Source of the DNA: Thermococcus sp. SY098
Lineage (GTDB): Archaea > Methanobacteriota_B > Thermococci > Thermococcales > Thermococcaceae
Length of the DNA stretch: 64,000 nucleotides
Direction: 5' to 3'
NCBI RefSeq assembly: GCF_035621495.1
Contig: NZ_CP141821.1
Span: 648,760 to 712,759 of the forward strand
Shown: piece by piece, positions 11,486 through 36,497 of the stretch
Numbering within the stretch: position 1 is the stretch's first letter
Layout of the letters: each line of letters starts with the position of its first letter
The notes under the pieces: generated by a model
Told to the model about the DNA's origin: nothing
What the model saw: only the letters and a program-made list of their open reading frames with translations
Databases searched by the model: none
Program-made: the position numbers and the translations under genes

Positions 11486-12514
11486 TTATTTCTTTCTCAT
11501 AAACCAGCTCTCCAAAGTTGACTGTTTTCCAGCTCTTATTGCTTTCTTCAGCCTTTCAAGACCGTTCTTTACTCTTTCCTCGCTGAAATCATGCTCATCA
11601 CAGAGGAACTTTAAAATGCCTTCTTCATCTGGCATCTTCCAGACGAGCTTGTAATCATCTGTAACAGGCGGATTTAGGAAGAACTCCTTGATTGCATATA
11701 AATCAACGTCGCTCATCTTCTGATACTTTTTCAGTGGATCTTTTGAATATTTAACTATCTCCAGAGCTTTCTTTGGACCAACCCCCTTGATTCCTCCCGG
11801 ATTATAATCGGTTCCAACCAGGATAGCAAGTTCTATGAGCTTTTCCCTGTCAATCTTCAGTTCTTTTAGAACTTCTTCCAAAACAATTAGCTCTGGCTTT
11901 ACTTCAACATAAACATCTTTTCCGGGAAGCTTTCTTCTGCCTGTTATCGTCAAATTCCTAACAAGCCTTGGTGCTCCAAACAAAAGTGAGTCATAATCCT
12001 GAGAAGCTGAAGCCCAGACTTTACCCTTTGATGCCATATAAGCCGCTTGGGCTTCACCTTCACTCGGAGCCTGCACCCATGGAATGCCCATAAGATCTAA
12101 CAATTTTTTAGCATCCTCTATCAGCTGCTCATTCACCCTTGAAGCTCTCTGAGCATATTTCTTTGCCTCCTCCAGATCACCTCTCGCCAAAGCCTCCTGC
12201 CACTTTTCCTCAGCTTCTTCCCTTGCTTCCGCTCTTTTTTCAAGCTCTCTCCTCTTGAATTCTGGTGGCTTTCCATCAAAGACGTAAGCTGGCTTTATCC
12301 CTGCTTCCATGAGGTTTATCGTCCTGTAGAACAGCCCAGAAAGATGTGAAGTTATCCTCCCCTTAGAGTCCATAAGAGGAGTTCCATCTCTTTGTCTGAT
12401 AATGGAGAGGAACTGATAAATTGCATTCAGGGCATCGATGGCTATCTTCCTTCCGTTTAGATTTTCAATCTCAATTTCTTTTCTTGGAACAAGCTCACCT
12501 ATCTGAACTCCCAT
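11486..12514 (-). CDS. fen: Flap endonuclease 1 (FEN-1)
   Basis: The 342-residue structure-specific 5' nuclease of Okazaki-fragment maturation and repair. N region ([28 protein letters not shown]) and I region ([54 protein letters not shown]) carry the metal-binding acidic residues and the helix-two-turn-helix. The C-terminal KQSTLESWF is the PCNA-interacting PIP box. Start ATG-12514 overlaps the upstream gene's stop (TGATG), so translation is coupled to the PsiE-like gene. Full family length. Confidence 0.97.
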
Positions 12515-12939
12515 CACTCCTCACCTATCTTAATGTATAGATATCCTAACACAAATATAAGGCCTGCGATTGCAAAAAGCTTTATAGCATCCAGCTCCCT
12601 AAAATCGGAAGCAACAACAAGCTTTTGAATTAAGGCAACTATTCCAACTTCCAATATGTGGGTCAGGCTAACGCGGTGCTGTCTTAAGTAGATTATCAGA
12701 ATTCTGTAAGTCTCTATGAGGATTATCGTAACGAGGACATTTGCAATCAACAGCTTAGGCTCGACAACTTTGTATGTGAGCTTGAAGTTCAAATAAATGG
12801 AATACACGGTAAGGTAGAGTATAAAGAACAGGAATACCATAACCACCATATCAAAGCATATCTCAAGGGTCTTTCTGAAGGCTTTGTGAACCTGCGTATA
12901 TTGGGCGACTTTCTCTTCTTCCATCTTCGCCATTTTCAT
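12514..12939 (-). CDS. PsiE-like (phosphate-starvation-inducible E) membrane protein
   Basis: About 141 residues from ATG-12939 ([11 protein letters not shown]). It has an N-terminal amphipathic Lys/Glu region and four predicted membrane helices ([37 protein letters not shown], a weaker [16 protein letters not shown], and [18 protein letters not shown]). This pattern, with the [11 protein letters not shown] motif, is that of the PsiE family; role in archaea unknown. The frame stays open back to 13098, but that upstream part is unlike the family and overlaps a C/D box sRNA, so I favour starts at 12939 or 12933. It is translationally coupled to fen. Confidence 0.75.
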
Positions 12940-12996
12940 CAGCCTACCGGTGTGCTCATCACCCCTCAGATGAGGGGAAGGGTCATCATCACTTTT
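12936..12996 (-). ncRNA. C/D box sRNA (rRNA or tRNA 2'-O-methylation guide)
   Basis: On the minus strand all four boxes appear in order with standard spacing: C box GTGATGA (12992-12986), a 16-base guide, D' box CTGA (12969-12966), a 3-base spacer, C' box GTGATGA (12962-12956), a 13-base guide (GCACACCGGTAGG) and D box CTGA (12942-12939). C to D spans 54 bases, as usual in Thermococcales. A TATA-like TTTTAAAG at 13018-13011 lies about 25 bases upstream. The RNA would bind L7Ae, Nop5 and fibrillarin. The D-guide target would read CCTACCGGTGTGC with the fifth base (C) methylated; I could not place the target. The D box overlaps the psiE start region. Confidence 0.82.
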
Positions 12997-13010: not shown

Positions 13011-13018
13011 CTTTAAAA
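13011..13018 (-). promoter_or_regulatory. TATA box for the C/D sRNA and probably the psiE-fen operon
   Basis: Minus-strand GAAGATTTTAAAGTC contains TTTTAAAG, centred about 23 bases before the C box. This matches the archaeal TATA-to-start distance if the sRNA 5' end lies at or just before 12992. Confidence 0.55.
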
Positions 13019-26133: not shown

Positions 26134-26259
26134 GGTACGGCGGTCATAGCGGCGGGGCTACACCCGGTCTCGTTTCGATCCCGGAAGTTAAGCCCGCCAG
26201 CGATCCCGGTTGTACTGCCCTCCGAGAGGGGGCGGGAAACCGGGGACGCCGCCGGCCAC
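26134..26259 (+). rRNA. rrf: 5S ribosomal RNA
   Basis: About 126 bases of very high GC in an AT-rich surrounding. It begins GGTACGGCGGTCATAGCGGC and ends GACGCCGCCGGCCAC; the two ends pair as helix I. The conserved loop CCCGGAAGTTAAGCC, the loop-E/helix-IV region TACTGCCCTCCGAGAGGGGG and helix V are all present, nearly identical to Pyrococcus 5S as I recall it. It is not linked to 16S/23S rRNA, as is usual in Thermococcales. It has its own promoter (26104-26111), and a T-run at 26268-26272 follows. Confidence 0.97.
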
Positions 26260-36437: not shown

Positions 36438-36439
36438 CT

Positions 36440-36497
36440 TCAGATGATGACCCCACCCTTGGCTGATATGATGATGAAGCCTCGTGGTTCTGATTTT
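36440..36497 (+). ncRNA. C/D box sRNA (2'-O-methylation guide)
   Basis: All four boxes are consensus: C ATGATGA (36444-36450), 12-base guide CCCCACCCTTGG, D' CTGA (36463-36466), a 4-base spacer, C' ATGATGA (36471-36477), 12-base guide AGCCTCGTGGTT and D CTGA (36490-36493), then TTTT. C to D is 50 bases and the two halves are symmetric, as in Thermococcales sRNAs. By the N+5 rule the D' guide would methylate G in CCAAGGGTGGGG and the D guide A in AACCACGAGGCT; I could not place these in rRNA or tRNA. It occupies the gap between gyaR and the convergent DUF72 gene. Confidence 0.85.

Follow-up and report, generated by a model that had tools for sequence, protein, structure and literature searches.

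The stretch of Thermococcus sp. SY098 DNA analysed here (64,000 nt, referred to below as the window) contains, on its minus strand, a true and conserved C/D box sRNA, which is followed by a psiE-like gene and by fen, the gene for FEN-1 (Table 1). The explanation we favour, with a probability of roughly 0.8, is that of an ordinary C/D box sRNA with two guides, which has its promoter in common with psiE and fen and is released by processing. The sRNA, its conservation, the position of the promoter, the gene order and the overlap are read directly from the DNA; the psiE-fen transcript, its processing, the 23S targets and their methylation are what we infer.

Table 1. Features of the sRNA-psiE-fen region, with positions in the window
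Feature	Position	Strand	Basis or remark
TATA box TTTTAAAG	13011..13018	-	22-29 nt upstream of C box, ending 21 nt before it; conserved in 19/19 genomes with this arrangement
C/D box sRNA body	12936..12992	-	RF00095 snoPyro_CD match; conserved among relatives
C box ATGATGA	12983..12989	-	Box reading of sequence
D' guide CCCTTCCCCTCAT	12970..12982	-	11 Watson-Crick pairs to 23S; predicted target local G2738
D' box CTGA	12966..12969	-	Box reading of sequence
C' box GTGATGA	12956..12962	-	Box reading of sequence
D guide GCACACCGGTAGG	12943..12955	-	8 Watson-Crick and 1 G-U pairs to 23S; predicted target local C2790
D box CTGA	12939..12942	-	Box reading of sequence
psiE-like gene	12514..12933	-	Pfam PF06146, E value 7.8e-11; start is the ATG 5 nt past the D box
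fen (FEN-1)	11486..12514	-	XPG_N and XPG_I domain matches

Read from 12992 to 12936, the minus strand sequence GTGATGATGACCCTTCCCCTCATCTGAGGGGTGATGAGCACACCGGTAGGCTGATGA has the full set of C/D box sRNA parts. The boxes are in the order C, D', C', D, the D'-C' gap is 3 nt, and the D' and D guides, at 13 nt each, fall within the range of archaeal C/D box sRNAs (about 12-13 nt). Two overlapping matches to RTGATGA were present at the C box, and the second was taken, as it is the only one kept at loci L008 and L009. By a hand estimate, this arrangement of boxes would be expected by chance about 1e-5 times per 64 kb. The Rfam model RF00095 (snoPyro_CD) matches the whole sRNA body with a score of 47.0 bits, compared with a gathering cut-off of 45 (E value 1.1e-6 for the 64 kb window), and has 23 matches in the 2.03 Mb genome, 6 of them above the cut-off. 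Hence, the C/D box sRNA with a complete set of boxes proposed in the initial annotation is borne out. The window also includes a second C/D box sRNA at 36438-36495 (+), which matches Rfam sR48 (RF01132; 47.3 bits, cut-off 40), and a 5S rRNA gene at 26136-26257 (+; 89.1 bits).

A TTTAAA-like box is found at about the same distance upstream of the sRNA in all 19 genomes that share the order sRNA, psiE, fen. In Thermococcus kodakarensis, the distance from the TATA box to the transcription start is typically about 23 nt (PMC4247193), and the start of sRNA-psiE-fen transcription is therefore expected no more than a few bases from the C box. On the other side, an ATG at 12933-12931, 5 nt past the D box (6 nt in one genome), is kept in the same 19 genomes. 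The sRNA thus has a promoter directly upstream and an ORF start directly downstream in 19/19 genomes, which is the arrangement of an mRNA 5'-leader. As the D box abuts the psiE start, and the psiE stop overlaps the fen ATG by 1 nt (TGATG), a single promoter could serve the sRNA, psiE and fen. These findings agree with the upstream TATA box and the position at the head of a psiE-fen unit that had been proposed for the sRNA. The further proposal, that the D box overlaps the psiE start, holds in part: the D box adjoins the start, but the conserved ATG lies 5 nt downstream and conservation does not extend to the ATG in the D box (12939-12937). The latter was rejected as the psiE start, being lost in most genomes of group g5 (TAAAG or TAGAA) and out of frame at loci L013 and L005. 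A coding function for the sRNA itself was also rejected; a frame is open through it in SY098, but indels of 1 nt break this frame in relatives.

In the favoured scheme, its own TATA promoter would drive transcription of the sRNA, and RNA polymerase could run on into psiE and fen, so that the sRNA would form the first 60 nt or so of the psiE-fen mRNA. On the C/D and C'/D' motifs, L7Ae, Nop5 and fibrillarin would form a complex that shields the sRNA body while nucleases trim the remainder; little or no trimming should be needed at the 5' end because it lies near the transcription start. A transcript spent on the sRNA could no longer be translated for psiE, a loss that would be a by-product of promoter sharing. 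Processing of the sRNA from the 5' end of the mRNA, one of two roles suggested for the leader in the initial annotation, agrees with published data for T. kodakarensis (PMC4247193, PMC9014305). Alternatively, the sRNA made from this promoter may end, or be cleaved, before psiE, with psiE and fen expressed mainly from another start, in which case the two would overlap only on the map. Multiple start sites were reported for many T. kodakarensis genes (PMC4247193) and, in the reporter tests of Tripp 2017 as reviewed in PMC7994747, overlaps at the 5' end lowered transcription of the downstream gene. However, the psiE ATG follows the sRNA after 5 nt, a gap too short to hold another promoter, and the 1 nt overlap of psiE and fen also argues against a separate start, which we consider very unlikely.

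A sequence-only model (R1) built from seven orthologues was searched against 94 genomes of the family. It finds the sRNA in 53 of them, though one (G013) probably has a different sRNA, and the boxes and guide cores are kept across the relatives. Reading the sequence upstream of fen in 91 genomes revealed three arrangements. In arrangement A, found in 19 genomes and in G029 with a weak match, the order is sRNA, psiE of type I, fen, as in SY098. In arrangement B, found in nine Pyrococcus-like genomes (group g3), the order is psiE of type II, sRNA, fen; about 10-12 nt separate the end of the D box from the fen ATG, with GGTGA directly after the D box, and a TATA-like stretch lies upstream of the sRNA in most of the nine. 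In arrangement C, found in 22 genomes (21 by script and G072 by eye), psiE of type II and the sRNA are followed by a separate fen promoter (CAAA..CTAAA), and the psiE stop may fall inside the C box, as in CGA TGA TGA at locus L092 (read by eye). In about 40 genomes, no recognizable copy of the sRNA is present beside fen among the 91 regions read, so that the predicted methylation would be either dispensable there or guided in another way. Weak R1 matches (E values 1e-4 to 0.5) in genomes lacking a fen-linked copy were rejected, as the ones inspected by eye are other C/D sRNAs with different guides. T. kodakarensis (which we take G024 to be) is among the genomes with no copy of this sRNA, its best R1 match having an E value of 0.07.

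The guide RNA is, on these comparisons, the conserved element, and the neighbouring gene that it leads or follows varies. Its persistence as a psiE-fen leader, a fen leader or a psiE 3' tail fits a guide RNA that makes use of any available transcript, a view of C/D guide RNAs reviewed in PMC7994747. In G028, the sRNA sits with psiE of type II, far from fen, and appears to have remained with psiE after separation from fen. Directly upstream of fen, GGCAGGCTGAGGCAAAGCCTAAATAC is kept at L054 (G024) and L057 (G028); it resembles the terminal part of the sRNA, with the D guide and D box, fused to the fen promoter, which would fit a rearrangement with a breakpoint inside the sRNA. Depending on the genus, the locus also carries one of two unlike psiE lineages, with type I lying between the sRNA and fen and type II upstream of the sRNA. 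The two types share only about 25-40 % identity, and no locus read carries both.

The same comparisons bear on whether the leader is a regulator. L7Ae, or the whole C/D RNP, bound to the k-turns of the leader could block initiation at psiE or, in Pyrococcus-like genomes, cover the ribosome site of fen, and this would link the supply of RNP to the synthesis of PsiE and FEN-1. In 28 genomes, the distance from the end of the D box to the psiE or fen start codon is 5-12 nt, and in the Pyrococcus-like genomes GGTGA comes directly past the D box, so that a bound RNP should block initiation. Sulfolobus L7Ae represses its own mRNA through a k-turn in the leader (PMC5539422), and elements of this kind were proposed to exist among predicted snoRNAs (PMC4247193). 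Regulation in arrangements A and B is therefore possible on geometry. An L7Ae-regulated mRNA should, however, keep its arrangement with the regulated gene, and here the gene that is led differs between lineages while the guide cores are constant, and an element with a regulatory role alone should have no need of conserved guides. Moreover, in the 22 genomes of arrangement C the fen promoter comes after the D box, leaving the sRNA outside the fen mRNA and unable to regulate fen as a leader, and the sRNA is absent beside fen in the roughly 40 genomes noted above. We therefore judge regulation to be an unlikely reason for the leader, and the other role initially suggested, L7Ae control of a replication gene, is unsupported. 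In a more specific version, a nascent leader on which the guide RNP assembles could not serve for translation of psiE (fen in Pyrococcus-like species), and the reverse, so that the supply of C/D RNP proteins would tune FEN-1 synthesis. This strikes us as improbable, but if true it would couple the maturation of ribosomes to DNA replication in those lineages where the leader arrangement has been kept.

As an ordinary guide RNA, the sRNA in its RNP is predicted to direct 2'-O-methylation at two 23S rRNA sites near the sarcin-ricin loop. The D' guide can form 11 bp with 23S and the D guide 9 bp, though some relatives keep 7; for an archaeal C/D box sRNA, the targets would lie at the fifth nucleotide from the D' and D boxes. 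The two predicted sites are 52 nt apart, flank the sarcin-ricin loop sequence AGTACGAGAGGA and, by hand count, correspond to about G2640 and C2691 in E. coli. The initial annotation had called for a search for complements of both guides, and the matches found are often equalled by shuffled guides, in 145/1500 cases (10 %) for the D' guide and 393/1500 (26 %) for the D guide. An equally good D match within 60 nt of the D' site was obtained in only 32/1500 shuffles (2 %). Taken alone, the 23S complementarity is weak, and it is raised only by the nearness of the sites and the pattern of conservation. The D' guide core CCTTCCCCTC is kept in nearly all copies, and the D guide core CGGTAG, with rare exceptions, in the copies tallied, whereas the adjoining guide bases vary. 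The bases kept are those predicted to pair with 23S, and the limits of conservation coincide with the limits of pairing, which is a stronger argument for the targets than complementarity. A 16S target (10 bp, local 1228) was dropped, as it leaves guide positions 1-3 unpaired. Among the 30 of 44 tRNA loci checked, no sense match better than those to 23S was found; the best scored below 23S and the leading ones apparently involve the antisense strand. Archaeal C/D sRNAs whose two guides are directed at neighbouring rRNA positions have been described (PMC4644070); the main text of that paper lists no methylation sites in domain VI. RiboMeth-seq has been performed for Pyrococcus furiosus, with the methylation data deferred to another report (PMC7758197).

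The location of an sRNA within an mRNA leader is of an already known kind. In T. kodakarensis, 23 snoRNAs were assigned to the starts of genes, 11 in 5'-UTRs and 12 in 5' coding regions (Jager 2014, PMC4247193), and at TK0058 and TK2034 the end of a circular sRNA coincides with a mapped start site (PMC9014305). In the SY098 genome, at least four other RF00095-type sRNAs (L120, L130, L133 and L136) are preceded by a TATA-like box at a distance of 29-34 nt and followed within 40 nt by the start of a gene supported by Pfam, the downstream genes being those for a nitroreductase, a phosphodiesterase, a YabA-like protein and a HAD hydrolase. At L127 (G000), two divergent C/D sRNAs at 1879686-1879742 (-) and 1879777-1879832 (+) are 34 nt apart and apparently have overlapping promoters. 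Within the literature compared, the finding of one sRNA orthologue as leader or trailer at a single locus is a modest new point. How leader overlap affects the host gene is a general question for C/D sRNAs, and the psiE-fen leader, the fen leader, the psiE 3' tail and absence in close relatives form a natural comparison for effects on expression of a replication gene.

Comparable known systems include the 5' snoRNAs of T. kodakarensis, such as Tko-sR01 at TK0058 (PMC4247193), where an sRNA likewise opens a protein-coding transcript and release by processing was proposed, though both the sRNA and the host gene are different. RF00095 shares with the psiE-fen sRNA its box grammar, size and a score above the cut-off (49-56 bits for the orthologues in Pyrococcus-like genomes); however, this family takes in many C/D sRNAs with other guides, and the psiE-fen sRNA is one orthologous group within it. 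Of the classes of C/D sRNA genes overlapping ORF ends in Tripp 2017, as presented in PMC7994747, the 5' overlap class (7 % of genes) fits SY098 and the 3' overlap class fits the relatives with the psiE stop inside the C box, but here one orthologous sRNA falls into both at the same locus. The leader of the Sulfolobus acidocaldarius l7ae mRNA (PMC5539422) also has k-turn-forming boxes near the translation start, but it is a simple k-turn without guides, whereas the psiE-fen leader combines predicted k-turn boxes with guides.
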